The notes under the pieces: model-generated
The model's input: only the letters and a program-made list of their open reading frames with translations
Told to the model about the DNA's origin: nothing
Databases searched by the model: none
In this document: positions 35,976-63,684 of the stretch, piece after piece
How positions within the stretch are numbered: position 1 is the stretch's first letter
Layout of the letters: every line of letters begins with the position of its first letter
Made by a program: the position numbers and the translations under genes
Assembly: GCF_007970465.1 (NCBI RefSeq)
Contig: NZ_CP042429.1
Coordinates: 558,001-622,000, forward strand
Length of the DNA: 64,000 bases
Reading direction: 5' to 3'
Origin: Corynebacterium nuruki S6-4
Lineage (GTDB): Bacteria > Actinomycetota > Actinomycetes > Mycobacteriales > Mycobacteriaceae

Positions 35976-36803
35976 TCAGCCGAGCGTCCGCTCCAGCACC
36001 TGCGCCACCCCGTCCTCGTCGTTCGACCCGGTGACGGCGTCCGCGATGTCCTTCACTGCGTCATCGGCGTTGGCGACGGCGACACCGTGGCCGGCCCAGG
36101 CGAGCATCTCCCGGTCATTGAGACCGTCACCGAAGGCGAGGACCTCGGACTGCCGCACCCCGAGCCGGGCGCACAGCTGTGCCAGCCCACTGGCCTTGGA
36201 CACGCCGGACGCCATCACCTCGACGAACGGTGCCCCCGACATCGTCATCTCGAAGTCCGCGCCGTCGAGTGTCCCGCTGCCGACCAGGCCGCGGGCGATG
36301 TCGTAGAGGTCCGCGCTGCTGATCGTCGCGTGACGGAAGACGAGTTTCAGGGCGGACGCCCCGGTCACCGTCGCCAGTGACTCGCCGTGCATCGCCGCGG
36401 GGTCGCGTTTGTGGTCGGCGAACGTGGCCAGCTCGGCATATCCCTCCTGGGCGACGAACTGCTCCCCGGCGTCCCGCACCGCCGCATACCGGACGCCGGG
36501 CACGGCCCGGTCGAGGGTGCGGACGAAGCGGCCGATGATCCCGGCGGGGAGTTCGTCGGCGAACAGGAGTTCGCGGGTGGACAGGTGCACGCCGAAGGCG
36601 CCGTTGCTGCACAGCGCCCAGTCCCGGAAGCCGGTCTCCGGCTGCAGGTGCTGCAGTCCCACCGGGTTCCGGGCCGTGGCGGGGACCACGGGGATTCCGG
36701 CTGCCGCGGCGGCGTCGAGTGCCGCCCGGGTCCGTGGACTGACGGTCCCGTCGCCGGTGAGCAGGGTGCGGTCGAGGTCGGTGGCGATGAGGCGGGGGAT
36801 CAC
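35976..36803 (-). CDS. HAD-superfamily (Cof-type) phosphatase
   Basis: 275 aa. Motif I IATDLDRTLLTGDG with the nucleophile Asp, a C2-type cap (about residues 85-190), Lys in SKASGLAQLC and motif IV AFGDGLNDREML. This is the Cof/YidA subfamily of sugar-phosphate or nucleotide phosphatases; the substrate cannot be told. ATG at 36803 overlaps the stop of the upstream META lipoprotein gene, so it is the last gene of a PBP - META lipoprotein - HAD unit. Confidence 0.85.
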   Translation of the reverse strand: MIPRLIATDLDRTLLTGDGTVSPRTRAALDAAAAAGIPVVPATARNPVGLQHLQPETGFRDWALCSNGAFGVHLSTRELLFADELPAGIIGRFVRTLDRAVPGVRYAAVRDAGEQFVAQEGYAELATFADHKRDPAAMHGESLATVTGASALKLVFRHATISSADLYDIARGLVGSGTLDGADFEMTMSGAPFVEVMASGVSKASGLAQLCARLGVRQSEVLAFGDGLNDREMLAWAGHGVAVANADDAVKDIADAVTGSNDEDGVAQVLERTLG

Positions 36804-37354
36804 GCCGGTTCCACCGGTTCGAGGCGGCCGAGTTCGACGCCCTCGGCGCCGGCGTCCGCGCCGTCCCTGACGGCGGCCCGGACGGTGAGGTGGTCGCCGT
36901 CATGGTGGAAGGACTTCGCGGATGTCAGCCAGGCACTCCACGGGCCGGGGCAGGCCATCATGGTGCTGATGAAGCCCTCGACGGTGGCGGTGGAGCCCTC
37001 GCCACCGTCGCCGTCGGTGAGGGTCCAGGTGGATCGCAGGCTGTTGCACCCGTCGGTGCCGGTCACGGTGCCGTCGTCGGCGAAGGTGAGGGCACCGCCG
37101 CCGTCCGGGTCGTGCCAGGTGCCGGTGAAGGCCGCCGGACCGGCGGGGACGACCGGCTGGTCGGGCTGGCCGGGGTGGGACGACTCAGACGGGACAGGTG
37201 CCACAGTGGTCTCCTCCGGGGCGGTCGTCGGTGCCTGACCGGACGCCGTGGCGGTGGCGTCCTGCGTACTGTCCTGCTCGGAGTTCGAGCAGGCGGCGAG
37301 GGTGAGCGCCAGCACCGCGGCGGCGACGCAGGCCGGCATCGTTCGTCGGTTCAT
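36800..37354 (-). CDS. META-domain lipoprotein
   Basis: 184 aa. A signal peptide ends in LTLAAC, a good lipobox, followed by a Thr/Ala/Pro-rich spacer (about residues 22-65) and one META domain with GTDGCNSLRSTW and GFISTMMACPGPWSAWL. The core motifs match the protein at 35411 almost exactly, so the two arose by duplication or share a target. The ATG lies 5 bases after the penicillin-binding protein stop, and the stop overlaps the HAD gene. Confidence 0.78.
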   Translation of the reverse strand: MNRRTMPACVAAAVLALTLAACSNSEQDSTQDATATASGQAPTTAPEETTVAPVPSESSHPGQPDQPVVPAGPAAFTGTWHDPDGGGALTFADDGTVTGTDGCNSLRSTWTLTDGDGGEGSTATVEGFISTMMACPGPWSAWLTSAKSFHHDGDHLTVRAAVRDGADAGAEGVELGRLEPVEPA

Positions 37355-37359
37355 GCCAC

Positions 37360-39060
37360 CTACTCTGCCACTCCCGCGGTGTACTGCGACAGCGCACCGT
37401 CGCGCAGGAAGCGTCCGGAGAGGTCGACGGCGGGCTCGGAGGAATCCGCGCCGGCGATGAAGGTGCAGAAGGCGAGGTCGCCGACCGTGCCGACGAACCA
37501 GCCGTGGGCCGCACCGCCGTCGACCTCCGCCGTGCCGGTCTTGCCTCCCAGACCGGGAATGTCCGACAGGGACCGGGCGGTGCCGGAGGTGACGGTCTCC
37601 CGCATCATCGACCGCAGTTCCTCCACCACCGTCGGATCGAGGGGGTCGGGATGCTGGTCGGAGGTCGTCTTCTGCCCCTGGATGACCGACGGGGTGACCA
37701 TGCGGCCACCGTTGGCGACGGAGGCCTCCATCAGAGCCAGTCCGAACGGGGACGCGACGACCTGGCCCTGGCCGATGGCGGACTCCACCCGGGCCGCCCC
37801 CTGACCGGTCTCCGGCACGGAGCCGGTGACACTGGTCATCCCGGGTGCGGTGAAGTCCACGCCGAGACCCAGCCGGGCGGCGGTGTTCTTCAGGTCGGCC
37901 GGGTCCAGGTCGCGGGAGATCATCGCCTGGGTGGTGTTGCAGGACTGCGCGAAGGCGGTGTGCATCGGGACGTCACCGAGGTCGAAGTCGTGGTCGTTGG
38001 GGATCACGCGCCCGTCAACCTCGGTGCTGGCGGGGCAGGCGACCGTGTCGTCGGGGTGGACGGTGCCCTTGCCGAGTGCGGCGGAGGTGGTGACCGTCTT
38101 GAAGGTCGAGCCGGGCGGGAACAGGCCGGTCATCGCCGGGGTGCCCTGGTCGTCGGCGGCGCCGTTCTGGGCGGCGGCGACCACACCGCCGGTCGAGGGG
38201 GAGATGGCGACGATCGCCGCCGGGCGCTGCTCCGCGTCCAGGGCCCGCTGTGCCGCACCCTGGACGCCGAGATCCATGGTGGTGTGCACCGGGTCGGTCG
38301 TCCCCGGGTCCTTGTGCCCCAGCACGTCCCCGGCCGAGGTGGCGAGAGTCCAGCCGACGGACTTGTCGAGCTGCTGGTCCCAGTAGTCGCGCAGGTCGCC
38401 GTCGAGCGGGGAGCGGGTCTCCCGGCCGGACAGCAGGCGGCCTTCCTCGCGGGTGCTGACACCGGGGATGTCCGCGAGGGCGTCGGCGACCTTCCCGGCG
38501 TCCTCGGGACGCAGCGAGAACAGTGTCACGGCACCGTCGCCCGCATTCCTGATCTGGGAGGCTGCGTCCTGCGTGTCGAAGTCGGGGATCGCGGGGCGGA
38601 CCGCATCGGCCACCGCCTGCAGATCGGCCTCCTTCGTCGCCGAGACGACGGTGACCGGGGTCCAGGACATCTGGGAGGCGTTGCGGATGTCGGTGACCGG
38701 GACATCCCAGGTGCGGTCGTCGGCGTAGGTGACCGTGTCGGAGTCCCCGAGCTGGTCGGAGAACACCGCCGGGGTCCAGGTGACCTTGCCGCCGTCACCG
38801 GTGGTGAGGGTGCCGTCGGTGGTGACCTCGTCGCCGGCGGGGACGGTCCACGTCGCGGTGGTGCTGCCGTCGTCGGCGGACAGGTGCAGGGTCGTGTCCC
38901 CGGTCGAGTCGTCGAGGTCGGCGAGCCACCGGCCGGCGGCGTCCGGATCGGTGGTCTGGTCGGCCGCGGCGGTCCAGTCGCCGTCGTTGACCGCATCGAG
39001 GAACTTGTCGGTGGGGGAGTGCGACCACGGGGCGGAGCAGCCGGCGAGGAGCAGGGCCCC
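37360..39060 (-). CDS. Class B penicillin-binding protein (lipoprotein type), 5' end missing
   Basis: Peptidoglycan transpeptidase. An N-terminal MecA_N/NTF2-like domain (TDKFLDAVNDGDWTAAADQTTDPDAAGRW) is followed by a PBP dimer region and a transpeptidase domain with all three motifs: STFK, SCN and KTGT (GGKTGTAEV). It matches the lipoprotein PBPs of actinobacteria (PbpA-lipo / Pbp2b-like). Just before the mature part only ALLLAGC remains of the signal peptide; codons beyond about 39057 on this strand encode the antisense of the next gene, with no usable start nearby. The gene has therefore lost its start, n-region and promoter, or the assembly is wrong here. Confidence 0.8.
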   Translation of the reverse strand, partial: GALLLAGCSAPWSHSPTDKFLDAVNDGDWTAAADQTTDPDAAGRWLADLDDSTGDTTLHLSADDGSTTATWTVPAGDEVTTDGTLTTGDGGKVTWTPAVFSDQLGDSDTVTYADDRTWDVPVTDIRNASQMSWTPVTVVSATKEADLQAVADAVRPAIPDFDTQDAASQIRNAGDGAVTLFSLRPEDAGKVADALADIPGVSTREEGRLLSGRETRSPLDGDLRDYWDQQLDKSVGWTLATSAGDVLGHKDPGTTDPVHTTMDLGVQGAAQRALDAEQRPAAIVAISPSTGGVVAAAQNGAADDQGTPAMTGLFPPGSTFKTVTTSAALGKGTVHPDDTVACPASTEVDGRVIPNDHDFDLGDVPMHTAFAQSCNTTQAMISRDLDPADLKNTAARLGLGVDFTAPGMTSVTGSVPETGQGAARVESAIGQGQVVASPFGLALMEASVANGGRMVTPSVIQGQKTTSDQHPDPLDPTVVEELRSMMRETVTSGTARSLSDIPGLGGKTGTAEVDGGAAHGWFVGTVGDLAFCTFIAGADSSEPAVDLSGRFLRDGALSQYTAGVAE

Positions 39061-40068
39061 TTCGAGACCGCGTCGATCGGACGCCTCGAGCTCGAGGACG
39101 GCGGGGTGATCGAGGACTGCTGGCTCGCCTACGCCACCGCCGGCGAGCTCAACGCCGACAGGTCGAACGCGATCCTCATCCCCACCTGGTACTCGGGCAC
39201 CCACGGCACGTGGTTCGAGCACTACATCGGGGACGGCCACGCCCTCGACCCGGAAAAATACTTTCTGATCTGCATCAACCAGATCGGCAACGGCATGTCG
39301 GTCTCGCCGTTCAACACCACCGACGACTCCATCGCGATGTCGAAGTTCCCCCACGTGCGGATCGGCGACGACGTCGTCGCCCAGGAACGGCTGCTGCGGG
39401 AGAAGTTCGGCATCGAGACCCTGTTCGCCGTCGTCGGCGGGTCGATGGGCGCCCAGCAGACCTACGAGTGGGCCGTCCGGTTCCCCGACAAGGTGCAGCG
39501 CGCCGCCCCCATCGCCGGCACCGCGAAGAACACCCCGCACGACTTCCTGTTCACCCAGACCCTCAACGAGGCCGTCGAATCCGACCCCGGATTCAACGGC
39601 GGCGAGTACTCCTCGCACACCGAGGTCGCCGACGGGCTGCGCCGGCAGTCGCATCTGTGGGCGACGATGGGCTTCTCCACCGAGTTCTGGAAGCAGGAGG
39701 CCTGGCGGGGGCTCGGGCTGGAGTCGAAGGAGGCGGCCCTGGCCGACTTCCTCGATCCGCTGTTCATGTCCATGGACCCGAACACGCTGCTCAACAACGC
39801 CTGGAAGTGGCAGCGCGGCGACGTCTCCCGCCACACCGACGGCGACCTCGCCGCCGCGCTCGGACGGGTCACCGCCACCATGTTCGTCATGCCCCTCAGC
39901 GAGGACATGTTCTTCCCGGTCCGGGACTGCGCCGCGGAGCAGGCCCTGGTCCCCGGCAGTGAACTGCGCGTCATCGACGAGATCGCAGGTCACCTGGGCC
40001 TGTTCAATCTCAGCGCGACCTACATGCCGCAGATCGACCGGAACCTCACGGAGCTGTTCGCGCGCTAA
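39061..40068 (+). CDS. MetX-like alpha/beta hydrolase, start not intact
   Basis: Homoserine O-acetyltransferase-like alpha/beta hydrolase. Nucleophile elbow VVGGSMGAQQTYEWA (about residue 125), a Ser-His-Asp set with the His in EIAGHLGLF, and PTWYSGTHGTWFEHYIG and NQIGNGMSVSPFNT near the N-terminus. This subfamily is distinct from true MetX, so substrate is uncertain. Family similarity begins at FETASIGRLELEDG, directly where the penicillin-binding protein gene on the other strand begins. The nearest in-frame start before it is a GTG at 39019, which would add 14 residues that are antisense to the PBP signal peptide; a GTG at 39106 would cut the first strand. Confidence 0.75.
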   Translation, partial: FETASIGRLELEDGGVIEDCWLAYATAGELNADRSNAILIPTWYSGTHGTWFEHYIGDGHALDPEKYFLICINQIGNGMSVSPFNTTDDSIAMSKFPHVRIGDDVVAQERLLREKFGIETLFAVVGGSMGAQQTYEWAVRFPDKVQRAAPIAGTAKNTPHDFLFTQTLNEAVESDPGFNGGEYSSHTEVADGLRRQSHLWATMGFSTEFWKQEAWRGLGLESKEAALADFLDPLFMSMDPNTLLNNAWKWQRGDVSRHTDGDLAAALGRVTATMFVMPLSEDMFFPVRDCAAEQALVPGSELRVIDEIAGHLGLFNLSATYMPQIDRNLTELFAR

Positions 40069-45546: not shown

Positions 45547-46680
45547 CTAGAGACCGAGCTTCTCCAGGCCGGCCCGCAGACGCTCGACGGTGCCGTCGAC
45601 GTCCTGCAGCTTGTCGAGACCGAACAGGCCCACCCGGAAGGTGGAGAAGTCCGCGGACTCACCGCACTGCAGCGGGACACCCGAGGCGACCTGGATCCCG
45701 GCCTCCTTGAACTTCGCGCCGGACTTCAGCTCCGGATCGTCGGTGTAGACCACGACCACGCTGGGGGCAGCGCAGTCGTCGGCGGCGATGGAGGCGAAGC
45801 CGTGCTCGGCCAGCAGGGCGCGGACCTTCGTGCCCAGCTCGATCTGCGCGGCACGCAGCTTCTCCAGTCCGTAGTCACGGGCCTCGACCATGAGCTGCGC
45901 GTTGTGGAACAGGCCGTCGGTCGGCAGGGTCGCGTGGTAGGGGGTGCGGCCGGCGCGGTACTCGTCGGCGATGAACAGCCACTTCTTCAGGTCCGCGGCG
46001 AAGCTGGTGGAGGTCGTGGACTCCACGGCCTTACGGCCGGCCTCGCTGAGCATGACGTAACCGGCGCACGGGGTGCCGCTCCAGCCCTTCTGCGGGGCGC
46101 TGATCAGCACGTCGACCCCGTTGTCGGACATCGACAGCCAGGAGGCGCCGGAGGCGACGCAGTCGATGACCAGCAGGCCGCCGACCTCGTGGACGGCCTC
46201 GCCGAGTGCCCGGATGTAGTCGTCGGACAGCTGGATGCCGGCGGCGGTCTCGACATGGGCGGCGATCACGACGGCCGGCTTCTGCTCGCGGATCGCGGCG
46301 GTGACCTCCTCGACGGGGGCGGGCTCCCACGGTGCGGTGGCCCCGGCGCCGGTCTGTGCGGCAGTGAAGACGGTGACGTCGTCGGTGATCTTGCCGGCGT
46401 CGATGATCTGCGACCACCGGTAGGAGAACAGTCCGTTGCGGACGATGAGGGTCTTCTGGTCCGTCACGAGCTGACGGGCCACGGCCTCCATGGCGTAGCT
46501 GCCGCCACCGGGGACGACGGCGGCGTCCGCCGCATCGTAGGTGGTGATGAGGACGTCGAGGAGTTCCTGCATGGAACCGAGGAAACGCTTCGACATGTGG
46601 TTGAGGGAACGGTCGGTGAAGACCACCGAGTATTCCAGCAGTCCGTCGGGATCGATGTCAGCGTGGGGAAGAGTCGTCAT
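45547..46680 (-). CDS. Class V aminotransferase (alanine-glyoxylate / serine-pyruvate type)
   Basis: 377 aa PLP-dependent enzyme. N-terminal FTDRSLNHMSKRFLGSMQELLDVL, cofactor-phosphate region PGGGSYAMEAVARQLV, the Asp that contacts the pyridine nitrogen in VIDCVASGAS and the Schiff-base Lys in ISAPQKGWSGTPCAGY. Substrates not determined. The ATG at 46680 is chosen over an upstream start because the extra 20 residues are not conserved-looking and a CAAAAT hexamer lies 7 bases before it. Two 15-base direct repeats upstream (46728-46763) suggest control by an activator. Confidence 0.85.
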   Translation of the reverse strand: MTTLPHADIDPDGLLEYSVVFTDRSLNHMSKRFLGSMQELLDVLITTYDAADAAVVPGGGSYAMEAVARQLVTDQKTLIVRNGLFSYRWSQIIDAGKITDDVTVFTAAQTGAGATAPWEPAPVEEVTAAIREQKPAVVIAAHVETAAGIQLSDDYIRALGEAVHEVGGLLVIDCVASGASWLSMSDNGVDVLISAPQKGWSGTPCAGYVMLSEAGRKAVESTTSTSFAADLKKWLFIADEYRAGRTPYHATLPTDGLFHNAQLMVEARDYGLEKLRAAQIELGTKVRALLAEHGFASIAADDCAAPSVVVVYTDDPELKSGAKFKEAGIQVASGVPLQCGESADFSTFRVGLFGLDKLQDVDGTVERLRAGLEKLGL

Positions 46681-46727
46681 ACCGGCTATTTTGCCATATG
46701 CCCCCGACGGAATTCCCACCAGACGGT

Positions 46728-46763
46728 GGAAACGTCCCACTCAGCGCCGGATATGTCCCACTC
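46728..46763. repeat. Two 15-base direct repeats upstream of the aminotransferase gene
   Basis: GGAAACGTCCCACTC (46728-46742) and GGATATGTCCCACTC (46749-46763), 13 of 15 identical, start-to-start 21 bases (two helical turns). Relative to the inferred leaderless start at 46680 they lie at about -48 to -83, a usual position for activator sites. Confidence 0.55.
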
Positions 46764-46804
46764 TCTGGAATGCCCGGGCGTGACAGACCGGGCCGGACGC
46801 CGTC

Positions 46805-47335
46805 TCAGGCCGGGGGAGGCGGCAGCTCACCCTCACGGATCACGGTCCCGTCCGCATTGAGCGTGTAGCGGGAGGAGACCAGGCCGGTCGGGTCGGCGTT
46901 CGAGTCGCCGGGCTGCGGGAACCGGTAGTCGACCTGGAGGATGTTGTCCTCGATCCGGAGCACCTGCTGGTTCGGATAGGCGGCCGCGGTGGTCGTGCCG
47001 ATGTAGCGGTCACCGGCGAACAGTGCGACCTGCTGCGGGGAACTTTCGGTACCGCCCGCGGTGTTGATGCGGATCGCGGAGAACGGCAGCCACGGCAGGT
47101 AGGTGGCGGTGTCCGCACCGTCGGTGGTCCACGGGCCGGCCGGTGACGGCGGCGTGAGATCGACGGCCGTCTGGACCGCCGCCTGGTCGTCAGCGGCCAC
47201 CTGTGCAGCTGCCGGGCCAGTCGGATCGGCAGGATCAGCTGTGGTCGTGGCCGTCGTGGCGGCGGCACCTCCGAGCGCGAGGAGTCCTGCGGTGGTGAGT
47301 GCGATGAGCTTCGGATGACGCTGTGTGCGGTACAT
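46805..47335 (-). CDS. LppP/LprE-family secreted protein
   Basis: 176 aa. Signal peptide LIALTTAGLLALGGAAATTAT without a lipobox Cys, so probably secreted or anchored by the uncleaved peptide. The LPWLPFSAIRINTAGGTESSPQQVALFAGDRYIGTTT segment and VDYRFPQPGDSNADPTG match LppP/LprE proteins of mycobacteria and corynebacteria, usually lipoproteins of unknown function. The ATG at 47335 is chosen at the start of the signal peptide; the frame is open far upstream but that is antisense to the DUF952 gene. Confidence 0.75.
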   Translation of the reverse strand: MYRTQRHPKLIALTTAGLLALGGAAATTATTTADPADPTGPAAAQVAADDQAAVQTAVDLTPPSPAGPWTTDGADTATYLPWLPFSAIRINTAGGTESSPQQVALFAGDRYIGTTTAAAYPNQQVLRIEDNILQVDYRFPQPGDSNADPTGLVSSRYTLNADGTVIREGELPPPPA

Positions 47336-47473
47336 GACTTGTCTCCCGTCTGTGGATTCAGTGTCAGTCCTTCCACCGGGGCAACCGGGCCCTGTCAGGG
47401 AGCCGTTACAATGCCCAGCGCATCCCGTAGGTTCGCGACAGGAAATATCCGGCCCGCGCACCGGTCCGGAGGG

Positions 47474-47479
47474 TAGCCT
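47474..47479 (+). promoter_or_regulatory. -10 element for a leaderless DUF952 mRNA
   Basis: TAGCCT lies 6 bases before the ATG at 47486. Confidence 0.4.
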
Positions 47480-47485
47480 GTGCGC

Positions 47486-47830
47486 ATGACGCTCTACCAC
47501 ATCGCCCGGCTGCCGGACTGGCAGGACGCCCTGAAGATCGGGGAGTACCGGGTCTCCACGGCGGGACTGTCCCTGACGCAGGTCGGCTTCATCCACGCAT
47601 CCGCCGCCGACCAGGTCGCGCCCACGGCGGAGCGGTTCTACAAGGACGAGGAGGGTGGCCTCTGCGTCCTGGTCATCGACGACGCCGCGGTACGCCGGGC
47701 CGGGACAGAGATCGTCACCGAGAATGTCGGCGGTGAGCTGTTCCCGCACATCTACGGGCCGCTGCGCACCGCCTGGGTGAGTGAAGTCCGCCCGGCGGCG
47801 TTCACCTCGGACGGCCGGTTCCTGTGGTGA
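47486..47830 (+). CDS. DUF952 family protein
   Basis: 114 aa. LYHIARLPDWQDALKIGEY at the start, GFIHASAADQVAPTAERFY and HIYGPLRTAWVSEV near the end match the DUF952 family. The conserved His residues and Asp suggest a small enzyme, but no reaction is established. ATG at 47486 is preferred over the GTG two codons earlier on the basis of the TAGCCT hexamer. The stop overlaps the GNAT gene. Confidence 0.85.
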   Translation: MTLYHIARLPDWQDALKIGEYRVSTAGLSLTQVGFIHASAADQVAPTAERFYKDEEGGLCVLVIDDAAVRRAGTEIVTENVGGELFPHIYGPLRTAWVSEVRPAAFTSDGRFLW

Positions 47831-48723: not shown

Positions 48724-49275
48724 ATGCATGTCACCTACGCCACCGCCACCACAGCGAACGGTTTCCTCGCGACCCTCGACGACTCGCTCGCATGGCTCTT
48801 CGCCGTCACCGGCGACACACCCGACCTTGACGCGCTCTACTCCGCGGCCAATGCCGTCGTCATGGGATCCAGCACCTACGAGTGGCTGCTGCGTGACCGC
48901 ACCCTCAACGACGACCCCGACGGCTGGGCCTCCGCGTTCGGAGACACTCCCGTCGTCGTCTTCACCACCCGGGCGCTCCGGGTGCCGGACGGCGCCGATG
49001 TCCGGTTCCTCTCCGGCCCCGTCACCGACAATGTCACCGCACTCCGCAGGATCTCCGGGGACGGGACCGTCTGGGTCCAGGGCGGCGGCGATCTCGCCGG
49101 ACAGTTCCTCGACGCCGACCTGCTCGACGACATCACCCTGCACATCTCCCCTGCTTTCCTTTCCGAAGGAAAGCCCCTGTTCCCACGCAACCTCGCCTCC
49201 GACCGCCTGACGCTCGTCGATGTCCGCCGGACCGGCCAGTTCATCGAGGCGACATGGCAGGTCAGGAACGACTGA
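48724..49275 (+). CDS. Dihydrofolate reductase / RibD C-terminal-domain family protein
   Basis: 183 aa. TYATATTANGFLATLDDSLAWL at the start, VVMGSSTYEWLLR near residue 45 (NADPH-binding part) and VWVQGGGDLAGQFLDADLLDDITLHISPAFLSEGKPLF at the C-terminal half match the YyaP/RibD-C reductase family, which shares the DHFR fold but is rarely true DHFR. Substrate unknown. Its last 14 bases overlap the convergent UvrA-like gene. Confidence 0.85.
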   Translation: MHVTYATATTANGFLATLDDSLAWLFAVTGDTPDLDALYSAANAVVMGSSTYEWLLRDRTLNDDPDGWASAFGDTPVVVFTTRALRVPDGADVRFLSGPVTDNVTALRRISGDGTVWVQGGGDLAGQFLDADLLDDITLHISPAFLSEGKPLFPRNLASDRLTLVDVRRTGQFIEATWQVRND

Positions 49276-51502
49276 GCGCGTCCTGCAGACACCGGCCGGT
49301 CACCGACCGTGCCCCGGCCCGTGCCAGCTCGGCGGGCGTGCCCTCGAAAACGACCCGACCACCGTCCCCGCCGGCACCCGGACCGATATCGATGACATGG
49401 TCGGCATGGGCGATGACCTGCAGGTTGTGCTCGATGAGCACGAGTGTGCCGCCGGCGTCCACAAGGTCGTCGAACAGGTCCAGCAGGCGGCGCACATCGG
49501 TGGCGTGCAGCCCGGTCGTCGGCTCATCCATGATGAGCTGCAACGGTGCGTCCGCGTCGACCCCACCGAGATGTCTGGCCAGGAGCAGTCGCTGACGCTC
49601 ACCGCCGGACAGCCCGTCGAGCGTCCGGCCCACCGCGAGGTAGCCCAGCCCGACCCGGTCGACCCAGCGCAGCCGGGCCGCGTCCTCCGGGCCGAGCAGG
49701 TCCGCAACCTCGGCCGGGCGCAGTGCCTCGACATCGGCGACGGTCCGCCCACCCACCGTCACGGACAAGGCCCTGTCGTTGAACCCGGACCCGCCGCAGG
49801 CCTCACAGGGCGTTCTCGTGTCCTCCAGGAAAGCCAGATCCGTGGTGATCTCCCCGGTGCCGCGGCACTCCGGGCAGGCGCCCTTCGCATTGCGGGAGAA
49901 CCAGGACGCCGACAGGTCACCGGCCGACGCGAACAGCGCCCGGAGCCCGTCGGCCACACCGGTCACCGTCAGCAGCGAGGAACGGCGTCCACCGTGCAGG
50001 GGCTGTTGCCCGACGACGGTGAACCCGGGGTGTTGCGCGGCGAAATCCGTGGTCAGCGAGGACTTCCCGCTTCCTGCCACACCGGTGACGACGGTGAGCA
50101 CGCCGGTCGGCACCGTCACCGTCAGATCCCGGAGATTGTGGCTCCGGGCGTGCTCCACGGTCACCGAACCCGTCGGTGTCCGGATCACCGGCTTGAGCAC
50201 CGGCACCTCGCCCCCGGGCAGCCCGTCGGGTGTGCCGGTGTACATGACCCGACCACCGTCTCCCCCGGCCCCCGGCCCCATGCCGATCACATGGTCCGCC
50301 GAGGCGATGACGGCCGGATGGTGGTCGACGACGAGAACCGTGTTGTGCCGGTCCCGCAGTCCGGTGAGCAACGTGATGAGTCGCTGCACGTCAAAAGGAT
50401 GCAGGCCGGCGGCCGGCTCGTCGAAGACATAGGTCACCTCGGTCAACGGACTGCCCAGGTGGCGCACCATCTTCACCCGCTGGGCCTCACCGCCGGACAA
50501 GGTCGGCGACGGTCGGTCGAGATTCAGGTAACCCAGCCCGACCTCGACCAGGGCGTCCACCCGGCGGGAGATGTCCGCCAGCAGCGGTGCGGCACTCTCC
50601 CCCAGCGATGCCGCCTCATCCACCAGTCCGCGCAGGTCGGCGACAGGGACTGCACTCCACTCCGCAATGGACCGGCCGTCGATGAGACTGCCCCGGGCTG
50701 CCGCATTGACCCGGGCACCGGCGCAGTCCGGGCAGGTCCGGTGATCGACCACGGCCGCCAGCCCCGCGCGCTCTGCGGCGGTGAGCCGGGACGGCGTCCT
50801 GCGCAGGTAGGAATCCTGCAGGCGGGGAAGGATCCCGTCGAAGCGCCGGTGGGCCGGATACCCGGGCAGCGGGTGCTCCAGGCGGAGATCCCGGGCGTGC
50901 AGCAGCACGTCGCGGACCTGTGCCGGCAACTGCGACCAGGGCGTCGACGGATCGCAGAGACCGGAGGTGACCAGGCGCTTCCACCGGTAGGTGCCGGGCG
51001 CGAACGTCGGGAACTGCACCGCACCGGCCGCCAGCGAGAGTGCGGGATCAATCAGCGCGTCCTCGTCGATGACGGAGACGGTCCCCAGCCCCTCACAGGT
51101 CGGGCACATGCCCGCCGGATCGTTGGGCGAGTATGCCGGGGAGAAGCCCGCGGACGGGACGGCGAACCGGGAGAAGAGCATCCGCAGCGGTGTCGAGAGA
51201 TCCACGGCGGTGGCCACCGTCGACCGGACGTTGCCGGTGAACCGGTGCTGGTCGACCACGGTGGTGAAGGTCAGCCCGTCGATCCGGTCGACGTCCGCCG
51301 CCGGGTACTGCGCCAGGCGGGTGCGGACGAAGGACGGGTATCCGGCGGCTGTGGCCCGTTGTGCTTCCGCCGCGACCGTGTCGAAGACCAGTGAGGACTT
51401 CCCTGACCCGGACACCCCGGTGACCACGGTCAGCGTGTGGGCCGGGATCGACACGTCGATGCCCCGCAGGTTGTGGGTCCGGGCGCCGGTGACGGTGATC
51501 AT
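49262..51502 (-). CDS. UvrA-like ABC ATPase (UvrA2 / DrrC type)
   Basis: 746 aa, shorter than UvrA (~950 aa) and lacking a UvrB-interaction region. Two ABC modules: Walker A GVSGSGKSSL and GVAGSGKSSL, signatures LSGGEAQR and LSGGERQR, Walker B VFDEPAAGLHP and IMDEPTTGLHA. Zinc-type Cys pairs CPTCEG, CPDCAG, CPECRG and CEACGG remain. Such proteins bind DNA and in Streptomyces relatives protect against DNA-binding drugs; they do not replace UvrA. The ATG is 7 bases after the mgtE stop, so it may be read through from mgtE. Confidence 0.87.
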   Translation of the reverse strand: MITVTGARTHNLRGIDVSIPAHTLTVVTGVSGSGKSSLVFDTVAAEAQRATAAGYPSFVRTRLAQYPAADVDRIDGLTFTTVVDQHRFTGNVRSTVATAVDLSTPLRMLFSRFAVPSAGFSPAYSPNDPAGMCPTCEGLGTVSVIDEDALIDPALSLAAGAVQFPTFAPGTYRWKRLVTSGLCDPSTPWSQLPAQVRDVLLHARDLRLEHPLPGYPAHRRFDGILPRLQDSYLRRTPSRLTAAERAGLAAVVDHRTCPDCAGARVNAAARGSLIDGRSIAEWSAVPVADLRGLVDEAASLGESAAPLLADISRRVDALVEVGLGYLNLDRPSPTLSGGEAQRVKMVRHLGSPLTEVTYVFDEPAAGLHPFDVQRLITLLTGLRDRHNTVLVVDHHPAVIASADHVIGMGPGAGGDGGRVMYTGTPDGLPGGEVPVLKPVIRTPTGSVTVEHARSHNLRDLTVTVPTGVLTVVTGVAGSGKSSLTTDFAAQHPGFTVVGQQPLHGGRRSSLLTVTGVADGLRALFASAGDLSASWFSRNAKGACPECRGTGEITTDLAFLEDTRTPCEACGGSGFNDRALSVTVGGRTVADVEALRPAEVADLLGPEDAARLRWVDRVGLGYLAVGRTLDGLSGGERQRLLLARHLGGVDADAPLQLIMDEPTTGLHATDVRRLLDLFDDLVDAGGTLVLIEHNLQVIAHADHVIDIGPGAGGDGGRVVFEGTPAELARAGARSVTGRCLQDALSRS

Positions 51503-51509
51503 GGTCGTC

Positions 51510-52811
51510 TCAGAGCATACTGGCGAGGATGACCTGGGCGATGGAGAAGTAGATGATCAGGCCGGTGGCGTCCACCAGGGTGGAGACCATCGGGGTGGAG
51601 AACACCGCCGGGTCCACGCCCAGCTTCTTCGCCGCCAGCGGGAGCATTCCGCCGACCAGGCAGGCCCAGGTGCAGATGCAGGCGATCGTCAGGCTCATCA
51701 CCGCACCGATCCGCGGTTCGTAGATCAGCGCGATGAACGGGAAGATCAGCACACCGAGGAACACGCCGAGCATCAGGCCCACCCGGGCCTCCCGCCACAG
51801 GACCTTGGCGATGTCCCGCGGTCTCACCTCGTCGACCGCCAGGGCACGGACCACCGAGGACGCCGCCTGGGACCCCGCGTTTCCGCCGGTGCCGGTGATC
51901 ATCGGCACGAAGGTCGCCAGGACGACCACCTTCGCCAACGTGTCCTCGAAGAAGCTCATGACGTTGATCGTCAGTACGGCGGTGATGATGAGGACGAGCA
52001 GCCAGGTACCGCGCTTGCGGGCGATGTCGAAGACCGTGGCGGTGAGGTACGGCTGCTCCAGCGGCTCGGAACCACCGGCACGGTAGGCGTCCTCGGTGGC
52101 CTCGTCCTCGAGGATCTCCATCGCGTCATCGACGGTGATCATGCCGAGGAACCGGTTCTCGTCGTCGACGACGGGCAGGGCCAGCAGGTCGGCCTCCTGC
52201 ACCAGGCGGGCCGCCGCCTCCCGGTCGTCGGTGGCGTTGACCGCGTGGGTCTCCTCGTTCATCATCTCGTCGAGCGGGGTGTCCGCCGGAGAGGTCACGA
52301 GCGTCGACAGGTCCACCACGCCGACGAGCCGCCGGGTGTGGTCGGTGACCGCGAGCACCGCGATGTCCCGGTTGCGCAGTTCCCGGCCGCGGAGCTTCTG
52401 CAGGGCGGCCTCCCGCGTCGAATCCGAGGAGATGACGGTCGGCACGGGGGTCATGTAGCGCCCGGCGGACTGGTCCGGATAGCCCAGCAGCGTGGAGGTC
52501 ATCTTCCGACGGTCCTCCGGCAGGCCCGCCAGCATCCGGGCGGCGACCTTCGCCGGCATCTCGTCGAGCAGCCGGGCGCGGTCGTCGTCCGGCAGTTCGA
52601 GCACCAGCTCGGCGGACCGGCCCTCCCGCAGTTCGTCGAGCAGCTCCGCCTGGTGGGCGACATCGAGGTACTCGAAGACCTGGGACGCCCGGTCCTTGTC
52701 CAGCAGGCGGAACAGCACCGCCTGGTCGGTCGTGTCGAGCCGGGACATCTCGTCGGCGATCTCGACGGTGTTCAGTTCGCCGAGGCTGGCGTGCAGTGCA
52801 GTCAGGTCCAC
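51510..52811 (-). CDS. mgtE: Magnesium transporter MgtE
   Basis: Inner-membrane Mg2+ channel gated by cytoplasmic Mg2+. N-terminal helical domain (about residues 1-125), two CBS domains (about 130-250; YMTPVPTVISS and DEMMNEETHAVNATDD), then five hydrophobic helices with the family signature VPMITGTGGNAGSQAASSVVRALA. 433 aa. GTG start. It lies between a 61-residue membrane protein gene and the uvrA-like gene in one direction. No M-box riboswitch was found upstream. Confidence 0.93.
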   Translation of the reverse strand: MDLTALHASLGELNTVEIADEMSRLDTTDQAVLFRLLDKDRASQVFEYLDVAHQAELLDELREGRSAELVLELPDDDRARLLDEMPAKVAARMLAGLPEDRRKMTSTLLGYPDQSAGRYMTPVPTVISSDSTREAALQKLRGRELRNRDIAVLAVTDHTRRLVGVVDLSTLVTSPADTPLDEMMNEETHAVNATDDREAAARLVQEADLLALPVVDDENRFLGMITVDDAMEILEDEATEDAYRAGGSEPLEQPYLTATVFDIARKRGTWLLVLIITAVLTINVMSFFEDTLAKVVVLATFVPMITGTGGNAGSQAASSVVRALAVDEVRPRDIAKVLWREARVGLMLGVFLGVLIFPFIALIYEPRIGAVMSLTIACICTWACLVGGMLPLAAKKLGVDPAVFSTPMVSTLVDATGLIIYFSIAQVILASML

Positions 52812-53780: not shown

Positions 53781-54149
53781 TTACCCCTCCCCTGCCCCGT
53801 CTTCGCCGACCCGGCGCCGGATCTTCTCCGCCGTCTTCGCCATCGCCACCAGTTCGGTGCACAGTGCCGCGACCTCGGCGGAGCTCACGGCGTCCGCGTC
53901 CTCGGTGACCGCGGTGCGGATGTCCTCGGCGGCGCAGCGCAGCTCGAACAGTGTGTCGGTGAGCTCCTCGGCGGCCCGGCGGGACAGCACCACGACATCG
54001 GCCGGCAGACCGGTCCCGGACAGCTGCCGGCGCTGTTCGTAGGCCCGCTGCCGGCACGACTGGCTGCAGTACCGGCGGTGCCGGCCCGACCCGGACTGCA
54101 CGATCTCCCGCCCGCACCAGGCGCAACGGTCAGGTTTCCTGGCGGGCAT
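53781..54149 (-). CDS. Small zinc-ribbon protein next to rbpA
   Basis: 122 aa. The N-terminus has CAWCGREIVQSGSGRHRRYC followed by SQSCRQRAYEQRR, a four-Cys zinc-binding motif seen in a conserved actinobacterial protein beside rbpA. The rest is helical, possibly coiled coil. Function unknown. ATG at 54149 has GGAAGGA 7 bases upstream; an upstream start at 54179 would be non-conserved. Divergent from rbpA. Confidence 0.75.
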   Translation of the reverse strand: MPARKPDRCAWCGREIVQSGSGRHRRYCSQSCRQRAYEQRRQLSGTGLPADVVVLSRRAAEELTDTLFELRCAAEDIRTAVTEDADAVSSAEVAALCTELVAMAKTAEKIRRRVGEDGAGEG

Positions 54150-54172
54150 GTGGCAGTCCTTCCGGTTCCGGG

Positions 54173-54178
54173 GTAACA
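54173..54178 (+). promoter_or_regulatory. -10 element of rbpA
   Basis: TAACAT, followed by a leader of about 38 bases with a GGAAGGAAGAGG SD-like run. A TTGACA at 54187-54192 has no properly spaced -10 partner and is probably fortuitous. Confidence 0.35.
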
Positions 54179-54223
54179 TTACAGGGTTGACAGTACGCGA
54201 GGGTACGGAAGGAAGAGGTAACG

Positions 54224-54601
54224 ATGGCAGATCGTGTTCTCCGCGGCAGCCGCATGGGGGCCGTCTCCTATGAGACGGACCGTGACCATGACCTGGCTCC
54301 CCGCCAGATGGCGAAGTACCAGACGGAGTCCGGCGAGGTGTTCGAGGTCCCCTTCGCCGATGACGCCGAACTCCCGAACGAGTGGATGTGCAAGAACGGG
54401 CAGATGGGCAAACTCCTCGAGGGTGAGGGGCAGGACGCCAAGCCCGTCAAGCCGCCGCGCACCCACTGGGACATGCTGCGTGAGCGCCGCTCCCTCGAGG
54501 AGCTCGACGAGCTGCTCGACGAGCGCATCGAGCTGCTGCGCAAGCGCCGCCGCTCGGCGATGAAGCTCATGAAGGAACAGCAGGAGTCCGCAGCCAAGTA
54601 A
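54224..54601 (+). CDS. rbpA: RNA polymerase-binding protein RbpA
   Basis: Actinobacterial transcription activator that binds RNA polymerase and sigma-A/B, stabilises open complexes and lowers rifampicin sensitivity. 125 aa: MADRVLRGSRMGAVSYETDRDHDLAPRQ tail and core, the beta-barrel segment VFEVPFADDAELPNEWMCKNG, then the C-terminal sigma-interaction helix RTHWDMLRERRSLEELDELLDERIELLRKRR. ATG with strong SD. A large bidirectional terminator follows, shared with ppm1. Confidence 0.96.
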   Translation: MADRVLRGSRMGAVSYETDRDHDLAPRQMAKYQTESGEVFEVPFADDAELPNEWMCKNGQMGKLLEGEGQDAKPVKPPRTHWDMLRERRSLEELDELLDERIELLRKRRRSAMKLMKEQQESAAK

Positions 54602-59981: not shown

Positions 59982-62672
59982 TCAGCCCGCGGAGGCCCCC
60001 AGCTCCACCACACCGCGGCGGATCGCCGGCACCGCCTTGCGCGAGGCGGCCTTCACCCCGTCCGAGTAACCGGTGTACCGGATCTGCCCGAGCAGGTCGA
60101 TGACCCGGTTGCACCAGCGCACGAAGTCCCCCGGGGTGAGCTCGGCCCCGCTGGCCTCCGCCGCCCGGATGCAGTACTCCAGCGGAGCCCCGGCGGTCCA
60201 CTGGTGCAGGGCGGTGACGAAACCGGTCTGCGGCTCCCGGGTCTGCGGCAGACCGTGCCGCTCCTCGTCACTGGTGAGCTCCCGGTGGATGCGCTGGACC
60301 GCGTTCACCGCGTCCACGAGCGCCTCAGTGGGTACACCGACATCGGAGCGGTCCTCGGGCCGGGTCTCCTTCCGGTTCTCGAAGACGCAGGTCGAGGCGG
60401 CGGCGGCGAGCTCGGCGGGATCGAGACCGTCCCACACACCACGGCGCAGGCACTGGGCGACGAGCAGATCGGACTCGTGGTGGATCCGGGCGAGCTTCTC
60501 CCCCTCCTCGGTCACCACGGCGGTCTCCCGGCCCCCGTCGAGTTCCAGGTAGTCCAGCTCGGCGAGCAGGTCGACGATGTGGTCGAAGGTCGCGGACAGG
60601 GACTCGGAGTCCGGGGTGAGGGCCTGCTCCTCGAGATCGAGGGTGCGACGCGCGGCGACGACGCGCTCGGCCGGGCGGACCAGCTCCTCCCGCTCGGGCA
60701 GGGCGTGCACCGGGTGCATGTGCAGCCGGTCCCGCAGGTCCGCGACCTCCTTCGACCCGCCGCGTGCCTTCGGCCTGATCTTCTTCGGCCGGTCGATGTG
60801 CTGGCGCCGCAGGTTGGCGGCCACCGCCCGGGCCTGCCGCTTCGGGGAGCGTTCCACGCCCCGGCCGAGCCGCATGTGGCCGACCTCGACCGGCACATTG
60901 CCGAAGGCCTCCGAGGACACCGGGCCGCACCAGCCGTCCTCGGTGATGATCCACGGGCGGGGACGCCGCCGGTTCGAGTCGCCGCGGGCGACGACGGCAC
61001 ACACCGGGTTCTTGCCCGTCGGCAGGGCGATGATGTCGCCGACCTGCAGGGAGGCCAGCAGTGCGGCGGTCTCCTTCTCCCGCTCCTCCCCGGCGTTGCG
61101 CCGGGCCTTCCGTTCGGTGACGGACAGTTCCCGGCGCAGCCGCGCGTAGTCGACGATCTCCTCGGGGGTGACGTCGGCGTGGATCTTCTTCAGGGTGCGG
61201 GCCAGGTCCTTCTGCAGTCCGGCGAGGTCGCGGCGGCGCTGGGTGAGCCGGGCGGCCTCCTCCACGACGTGGGCGGCGGTCTGGTACTGGGCGAAGGAGC
61301 GGTCGAGGATCCGCTGCGAATCCTCGTAGCCGCGGGTGCCGATGAGGTTGACGGCCATGTTGTAGCCGGGCCGGAATGTCGAGTCCAGCGGGTAGGTGCG
61401 GGTCTGCGCGAGGTTCGCGACCGCGTACGGGTCGATCCCCGGGCTCCACAGCACGACCGCGTTACCTTCGGTGTCCTTGCCGCGGCGTCCGGCGCGCCCG
61501 GTGAGCTGCGTGTACTGGCCCGGGGTGAGGTCGACGTGCGCCTCCCCGTTGAACTTCACCAGCTTCTCGAGCACCACCGACCGGGCGGGCATGTTGATGC
61601 CCAGGGCGAGGGTCTCGGTGGCGAAGCAGACCTTGAGCAGTCCGCGGGTGAACAGGTCCTCGACGATGTGGCGGAACGCCGGCAGCATGCCGGCGTGGTG
61701 GGCCGCATAGCCGTTGCCCAGGGCCCGGCGCCACTGCCGGAATCCGAGGACGCCCAGGTCCTCGGTGGGGATCTCGTGGACGCCCTCGTCGACGGTGCTG
61801 AGGATCTCGTCGCGTTCGTCGTCGGTGGTCAGTCGGATCCGGTCGACGAGCAGCTGCCGCATCGCCGCATCGCAGCCGTTGCGGGAGAAGATGAAGTAGA
61901 TCGCCGGGAGCATGCCGGCCGCACGCATCCGCATGACGACGTCGGTGCGTTTCGGGCCGCGGCGGCGTCCGGTGTCCTCGGCGTGGCCGGCGGCGTGCAG
62001 CAGGGCGCGGTTGACGTAGCCGGGGTCCGGCCGGTCCTGGTCGGCGAACATCGGAAGCATCTGACTGCCGACCATCATGTACTGGTGCAGCGGCACGGGC
62101 CGGTGGGTGGTGATGATGAGGTCGGTCTGTCCGCGGACGGTGGTGAGCCAGCCGCCGAACTCCTCGGCGTTGCTCACCGTCGCCGACAGGCTGACGAGGA
62201 TGACCGACGGATCGAGGTTGAGGATGACCTCCTCCCACACCGGACCGCGGGACGGGTCGGCGAGGAAGTGCACCTCGTCCATGACGACGTGGGTGAGCCG
62301 GTCGAGCCGGTCGGAGGTCGCGTAGACCATGTTGCGCAGCACCTCGGTCGTCATGACGACGACGGGGGCGTCCCCGTTGATGCTGACGTCGCCGGTGAGC
62401 AGACCGACCTGTTCCTCACCGTAGCGGTCGACGAGGTCGTGGTACTTCTGGTTGCTCAGGGCCTTGATCGGCGTGGTGTAGAAGCAGGCGCCGCCGTCGC
62501 GCAGCGCCTGGTGGACGGCGAATTCCCCCACCACGGTCTTACCGGCGCCGGTGGGGGCGCACACCAGGACGCCCCGGCCCGCCGCGATCGCGCGGGCGGC
62601 CTCGAGCTGGAAGTCGTCGAGGGGGAAGGGGTAGTCGGCGGCGAAGGCCGCGACCGAATCAGAGGATGTCAT
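59982..62672 (-). CDS. helY: DEAD/DEAH-box helicase, HelY/Ski2-like
   Basis: 896 aa superfamily 2 helicase related to eukaryotic Mtr4/Ski2. Motifs: Walker A VCAPTGAGKT, Walker B VVMDEVHFL, motif III LSATVSN, motif IV/V region (IYFIFSRNGCD) and motif VI QLTGRAGRRG. C-terminal winged-helix/arch and ratchet-like parts follow (about residues 450-890). Probably acts on RNA. The ATG at 62672 follows TACGGT by 7 bases. It overlaps the 3' end of tatC by 14 bases; the tat-helY order is conserved in actinobacteria. Confidence 0.9.
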   Translation of the reverse strand: MTSSDSVAAFAADYPFPLDDFQLEAARAIAAGRGVLVCAPTGAGKTVVGEFAVHQALRDGGACFYTTPIKALSNQKYHDLVDRYGEEQVGLLTGDVSINGDAPVVVMTTEVLRNMVYATSDRLDRLTHVVMDEVHFLADPSRGPVWEEVILNLDPSVILVSLSATVSNAEEFGGWLTTVRGQTDLIITTHRPVPLHQYMMVGSQMLPMFADQDRPDPGYVNRALLHAAGHAEDTGRRRGPKRTDVVMRMRAAGMLPAIYFIFSRNGCDAAMRQLLVDRIRLTTDDERDEILSTVDEGVHEIPTEDLGVLGFRQWRRALGNGYAAHHAGMLPAFRHIVEDLFTRGLLKVCFATETLALGINMPARSVVLEKLVKFNGEAHVDLTPGQYTQLTGRAGRRGKDTEGNAVVLWSPGIDPYAVANLAQTRTYPLDSTFRPGYNMAVNLIGTRGYEDSQRILDRSFAQYQTAAHVVEEAARLTQRRRDLAGLQKDLARTLKKIHADVTPEEIVDYARLRRELSVTERKARRNAGEEREKETAALLASLQVGDIIALPTGKNPVCAVVARGDSNRRRPRPWIITEDGWCGPVSSEAFGNVPVEVGHMRLGRGVERSPKRQARAVAANLRRQHIDRPKKIRPKARGGSKEVADLRDRLHMHPVHALPEREELVRPAERVVAARRTLDLEEQALTPDSESLSATFDHIVDLLAELDYLELDGGRETAVVTEEGEKLARIHHESDLLVAQCLRRGVWDGLDPAELAAAASTCVFENRKETRPEDRSDVGVPTEALVDAVNAVQRIHRELTSDEERHGLPQTREPQTGFVTALHQWTAGAPLEYCIRAAEASGAELTPGDFVRWCNRVIDLLGQIRYTGYSDGVKAASRKAVPAIRRGVVELGASAG

Positions 62673-63684
62673 CGCTGCTACCGTAGTCGAACGCCCGGTC
62701 CGGACCGGCGTCGCGGACCGGTGCGGGTGCGGCGACCCGGTCGGTGGTGACCGGCCGTGCACCGCTGACCGGCTGCGCGGCGGCGATCTGTGAGCCCTCG
62801 TCGTCGGCGATCCCGACCGGTGCCCCGTCGGACCCGGACCTGCGTGCCTTCCGCTTGTCGTGGATCCGGGCGATCTGCATGGCGATCTCCATGAGCACGC
62901 ACAGCGTGACCGCGAGTGCGGACATCGAGAACGGGTCCTGGCCGGGGGTGATGACGGCGGCGAAGATGAACAGTCCGACGATGATGTACCGGCGCTTGTT
63001 CTTCATCGCGCTGTAGGGCAGCACCCCGGCGAGGTTCAGCATGACGATGACGAGGGGTACCTCGAAACTCACGCCGAACAGGAGGATGAGGATGAGGACG
63101 AAGTTGAAGTAGTCGGTACCCGTCAGGGCGGCGATCTGCGCCTCACTGCCGATCGAGAGCAGGAACTCGAAGGCGAAGATGAGGACGACGTAGGCGAGCA
63201 CCGCGCCGAGGATGAACAGGGTCGTCGCCGCGGCGACGAAGGTCCGGGTCCAGCGCTTCTCGTTCTTCTTCAGGCCCGGGGTGATGAACCCCCACAGCTG
63301 GCCGAGCCAGACCGGGGCGGAGACGACCAGGCCGACGATGCTGCCGAGCTTGAGCCGGAGGATGAACATCTCGAGCGGCGCGGTCGACAGCAGCCGGCAT
63401 TCCCCGGTCTCGCTGCCGAACCGGAGGTCCGGGTCCAGGGCACAGTAGGGACCCCGGAGGATCTCCCCCAGGCTCGGGACGGGGCCGACGGACACGCCGT
63501 ACCAGATGAAGCCGAGGATCGTGCCGACGAGCATCGCGGCGAGGGCGACGAGCAGTCGCCGCCGGAGTTCCTTGAGATGCTCGATGAGGGCCATCTCGGC
63601 ACCGTTCGCGCGGCGCCGACGACGACCGGAACCCGGCAGGTGTACGTGCCGGGTTCTGTTCTGGGGGTTGTCGGAAGTGGTCAT
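62659..63684 (-). CDS. tatC: Sec-independent protein translocase TatC
   Basis: Receptor for twin-arginine signal peptides. 341 aa with six hydrophobic helices and conserved segments MALIEHLKELRRRLLVAL, RGPYCALDPDLRF, APLEMFILRLKLG, FITPGLKKNEKRW and FGVSFEVPLVIVML. The N-terminus has an Arg-rich extension and the C-terminus a ~60-residue polar tail. ATG preceded by a tatA gene 11 bases away. Confidence 0.95.
   Translation of the reverse strand: MTTSDNPQNRTRHVHLPGSGRRRRRANGAEMALIEHLKELRRRLLVALAAMLVGTILGFIWYGVSVGPVPSLGEILRGPYCALDPDLRFGSETGECRLLSTAPLEMFILRLKLGSIVGLVVSAPVWLGQLWGFITPGLKKNEKRWTRTFVAAATTLFILGAVLAYVVLIFAFEFLLSIGSEAQIAALTGTDYFNFVLILILLFGVSFEVPLVIVMLNLAGVLPYSAMKNKRRYIIVGLFIFAAVITPGQDPFSMSALAVTLCVLMEIAMQIARIHDKRKARRSGSDGAPVGIADDEGSQIAAAQPVSGARPVTTDRVAAPAPVRDAGPDRAFDYGSSDDIL

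Follow-up and report, generated by a model that had tools for sequence, protein, structure and literature searches.

How two divergent genes can come to stand head to head with practically no DNA between them, and with the 5′ ends of both apparently missing, is the question raised by one locus in the genome of a Corynebacterium. The window, by which is meant the whole 64-kb stretch of DNA analysed (G000:C1:558001-622000), belongs to a genome assembled as one contig of 3173955 bases and rated 99.99% complete. An earlier note on this DNA had proposed that sequence is missing where a penicillin-binding protein (PBP) gene and a MetX-like hydrolase gene meet, either through a deletion or through collapse of the assembly. 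For comparison, both proteins were searched for in each of 242 genomes of the genus, the window's own included (241 others). The features of the locus are as follows.

37360..39057, minus strand: class B penicillin-binding lipoprotein, beheaded (PF00905; STFK, SCN and KTGT; a 96% identical relative has 14 more N-terminal residues)
39037..39057, minus strand: lipobox stretch ALLLAGC, the final PBP sequence before the junction (from translation)
39202..39204, minus strand: closest upstream in-frame PBP start codon, a GTG within the antisense of the hydrolase (from frame reading)
39052..39057, no strand assigned: junction, the six bases CAGGGC, matched by both the PBP-side and the hydrolase-side alignments
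39061..40068, plus strand: MetX-like alpha/beta hydrolase of the PRK07581 subfamily (NF005757, 487.9 bits, cut-off 332; PF00561; residues 15-347 of 5d6o against residues 1-333)
39019..39021, plus strand: in-frame GTG, predicted candidate for a substitute hydrolase start (from frame reading)

The minus-strand gene has what defines a class B PBP, namely a PF00905 transpeptidase domain in which the SxxK (STFK), SxN (SCN) and KTG (KTGT) motifs are all present, and the claim that its catalytic motifs are kept is therefore correct. The remaining piece comprises 565 residues and retains the lipobox, while the start codon and the head of the signal peptide are absent. Translation agrees with the earlier note that the protein reads back only to ALLLAGC (39057-39037), beyond which the frame runs through hydrolase antisense. 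This frame was said to be startless for dozens of codons, and indeed the 49 codons upstream of ALLLAGC contain no ATG, GTG or TTG until GTG 39204 is reached; downstream, the first in-frame start lies 97 codons into the conserved protein. A protein search with the PBP yielded P0121, a protein of 579 residues that is 96% identical across the whole piece, is encoded on a JGI contig of 40058 bases and stands for a cluster of 26 sequences. Its 14 additional N-terminal residues, the very ones absent from the window, form a signal-peptide head leading into an identical lipobox, which bears out the reported loss of that head. Whereas P0121 possesses both a start codon and a signal peptide ahead of the lipobox, the window lacks them, its PBP frame being startless for 49 codons, and the PBP encoded there is predicted to be no longer exportable as a lipoprotein. 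A product initiated at GTG 39204 would begin with 49 antisense-coded residues bearing no evident signal peptide, so that no exported PBP would be expected.

The two PBPs differ at 20 positions, of which, judged against seven outgroups, 7 are derived in the window, 9 are derived in P0121 and 4 are unclear. Because the window's PBP has been changing no faster than P0121, there is no sign of long decay, and the event is either recent or an artefact; an old deletion was considered and set aside, given the lack of any window-side excess in relative rate. At E 1e-130 the PBP occurs in 32 of the 242 genomes, and the hydrolase in 23 of 242 at E 1e-100, the window's own genome being counted in both cases; within the genus, both are accessory genes. 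In two other genomes (G164:C1:191119-192834 and G105:C23:23343-25058), the PBP homologue is interrupted by a single in-frame stop, and given these stops it looks to have been lost repeatedly.

The plus-strand gene passes the model for the PRK07581 subfamily, NF005757, at 487.9 bits against a cut-off of 332, and fails the curated cut-offs for true MetX proteins (158.4 vs 500 for TIGR01392 and 161.5 vs 331 for NF001209). The closest solved structure is 5d6o, reported to be an ester hydrolase and not an acetyltransferase; 333 residues align with it (E 3.3e-200), beginning at 5d6o residue 15. The protein thus resembles the PRK07581 subfamily and 5d6o in its score, but differs in that the first 14 native residues are absent from the remaining piece of 335 residues, and its scores stay below the true-MetX cut-offs. 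A literature search on the hydrolase family turned up nothing about the window's protein. Tandem copies of MetX-like hydrolases, 70% and 60% identical to that of the window, were observed in another genome (G121:C1:2180238-2182441; L143, L153).

Although the hydrolase is plain from 39061, the position given in the earlier note, its homology begins earlier, at about 39041-39052 according to the relative compared. The further claim that neither gene retains a start codon stands for the PBP but fails for the hydrolase, since an in-frame GTG is found at 39019-39021, 14 codons before the residue F encoded at 39061, in a frame that is open through the junction. Relatives likewise have 14 residues ahead of this F position, and a start at GTG 39019 would therefore yield a product of native length, 349 residues. 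Translation from this codon would occur only if a transcript crosses it. The hydrolase is likely to be silent as well, although GTG 39019 leaves it some chance of being translated. Because its frame is open and has a GTG suited to a native-length product, silencing is less certain for the hydrolase than for the PBP. A scan of 38700-39500 with the sigma-70 consensus detected no promoter, a result without power, as shuffled controls also gave 0.0 and corynebacterial promoters were not modelled.

The arrangement of the locus in relatives shows that sequence is absent from the window. Both genes occur in ten other genomes, and in five of these they stand head to head. When the interval is defined as the bases between the codons that correspond to the opening residue of each window piece, it measures 212 bases in G258, 203 in G028, 257 in G194, 222 in G030 and 247 in G003. 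A sixth genome, G134, has the PBP and, in the same place at a distance of 192 bases, a stretch of 92 bases matching the hydrolase start. The remaining genomes with both genes were left out of this count because the genes are divergent with about 2.1 kb between them (G075), convergent (G101) or far apart (G121, G164 and G170). In the window only 3 bases lie between the homologous codons, in agreement with the statement that the genes meet within about 4 bases, and the proposed absence of sequence at the junction is upheld by the 192-257 bases in six relatives vs 3. The G134 match (G134:C17:643923-644014) is accompanied by no full-length hydrolase match at E 1e-100, and the gene looks broken or lost there too.

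The hydrolase of all five head-to-head relatives has its ATG 42 bases ahead of the homologous residue, and in four of the five the PBP ATG lies 153-201 bases ahead of that same hydrolase residue, the search expression having missed that of G028. These positions place both starts in the part that is absent from the window. Furthermore, the genes on either side of the junction are collinear with those of relatives, over alignments extending to 80 kb in G028, 32 kb in G258 and 80 kb in G030. Sequence present in relatives is hence absent between collinear flanks and, as read from its bases, the window is without the start and signal-peptide head of the PBP, the native start of the hydrolase and the upstream region that the two genes share.

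A gapless junction in relatives was what the earlier note had set as grounds for abandoning its proposal, and none came to light in the 241 other genomes: a 230-base junction query matched 21 of them at the DNA level (E 1e-5), with no match crossing the junction among the up to 3 candidate places scored per genome. The junction is known from one assembly only. Among protein records, residues 1-44 from GTG 39019 retrieved 29 relatives, none exceeding 75% identity across all 44 residues (the best reached 89% over 84% of the query), a result that is not decisive, because clustering conceals sequences of 90% identity or more. Beheaded copies could therefore sit among the 26 sequences behind P0121.

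The break itself carries a short shared word. Against G030 and G134, the PBP-side match runs to 39057 and the hydrolase-side match starts at 39052, so that the two overlap in the six bases CAGGGC. The overlap with G258 falls instead at 39041-39049, and there is none with G028, G194 or G003; CAGGGC is thus seen with two of six relatives, and a six-base overlap can arise by chance in GC-rich DNA. CAGGGC probably represents the surviving copy of a short direct repeat, the ancestral repeat being deduced from the relatives. Together, these observations make it likely that about 190-254 bases were lost by a recent deletion between short direct repeats, which would silence the PBP and probably the hydrolase. 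Such an event could have proceeded by slipped mispairing or by single-strand annealing at the short repeat, and would have placed the PBP lipobox codons next to approximately codon 12 of the hydrolase. The lesion is an ordinary one, probably a small deletion beheading two accessory genes. RecA-independent deletions between short direct repeats are reported for E. coli K12 (PMC5426353). The loss of a short interval and the short shared word at the break are features in common with those deletions; unlike them, the window's presumed repeat is reconstructed from relatives and is very short, at about six bases.

The alternative that deserves most weight is that the strain itself has an interval of the usual length, about 200 bases, and that this was dropped from the consensus during sequencing or assembly. 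This would account for the presence of the interval in every other head-to-head pair found, for the intact near relative P0121, and for two genes that are otherwise open, with a PBP decaying no faster than its relative. Yet the genome is a single contig rated 99.99% complete, and no other beheaded gene was seen among the conserved stretches examined, five outlying stretches being outside this check. Furthermore, biological deletions are usually marked by a clean loss and by a short word shared at the break. An artefact is accordingly regarded as unlikely, albeit a serious contender, and by judgement, not computation, a real deletion is clearly favoured over it. That the gapless arrangement is instead a normal, evolved gene overlap whose starts have gone unrecognised is hardly credible: the in-frame GTG 39019 does give the hydrolase its native length, but all six other head-to-head cases have 192-257 bases, the ATG codons of relatives lie 42 bases before the homologous point of the hydrolase (five of five) and within the interval for the PBP (four of five), and the PBP frame is startless for 49 codons. 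It is just as improbable, with nothing found in its favour, that the interval was moved by a rearrangement and not lost, since the C. variabile interval with its edges (251 bases) produced only two matches in the window's own genome, at E 0.057, and one site matched a degenerate pattern built on the hydrolase head, vs two for a control pattern. The genome yielded no relocated copy of the interval, though a diverged one might have escaped the search.

Generally poor sequence in the window was also considered as a candidate explanation and rejected, as the PBP was the only beheaded gene seen, with five stretches outside the closer look. In this check, which counted weak matches too, 28 stretches with conservation in three relatives were inspected, and 18 have a start codon between -15 and +5 codons of the first aligned residue. 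Four of the ten outside this range, namely the PBP, 36803-37426, 53802-54446 and 59988-62948, are startless for 20 codons in both directions. The lipoprotein reading frame of 36803-37426 starts at ATG 37354, and both 53802-54446 and 59988-62948 have an ATG further in that is aligned with the protein starts of relatives, the conserved part before the ATG of 53802-54446 being partly antisense to another gene. A fifth stretch outside the range, 49271-51556, has its start 18 codons in. At 53784-54580, part of the conserved minus-strand frame lies antisense to a small gene of the plus strand, presumably encoding an RbpA-like protein, and open antisense frames mislead gene finding there. Separately, about 810 bases lie between divergent conserved stretches at 46674-47486, where G258 has about 20 and G030 about 330, possibly reflecting extra sequence in the window.

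A bolder interpretation of the deletion would treat it as a regulatory switch, by which an accessory beta-lactam target is removed while the hydrolase is freed from its usual control and started at the GTG put in frame by the join, with PBP antisense as its new head. The control in question would act through a GlxR-type site: an exact TGTGA-N6-TCACA, given as the GlxR consensus in PMC7999487, occurs upstream of the hydrolase in three of twelve relatives' loci (G258, G101 and G024; L137, L136 and L036). G258 alone among them carries the PBP head to head with the hydrolase. Among the other nine loci, no such site appears when one mismatch is allowed, and the 64-kb window contains none. A switch of this kind seems improbable.

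The window's PBP presumably resembles mycobacterial PBP-lipo. According to PMC9170245, this class B PBP (MAB_3167c, Rv2864c) is a predicted lipoprotein that is essential in M. abscessus and non-essential in M. tuberculosis (Rv2864c), and its M. smegmatis homologue was knocked out without a growth defect. By analogy, the window's protein would be of the same class B lipoprotein type, whose homologues can be dispensable. It is unlike PBP-lipo in that its start and signal-peptide head are absent and that an open frame of 631 codons in its genome (G000:C1:334394-336118) encodes a further PBP, 39% identical to it. Because of this second PBP, loss of the first would plausibly be tolerated.

The junction makes no long-standing question testable. 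It does, however, set a trap for annotation: measured between stops, the frames that cross the join extend for 909 and 920 codons, and with more than 900 open codons on either strand, gene-finding software may call over-long products, either a 909-residue PBP or an 854-residue hydrolase, which probably do not exist. If the deletion is real, the locus would represent a clean case of one small deletion disabling two divergent genes at once, and both genes would be dispensable in this strain.
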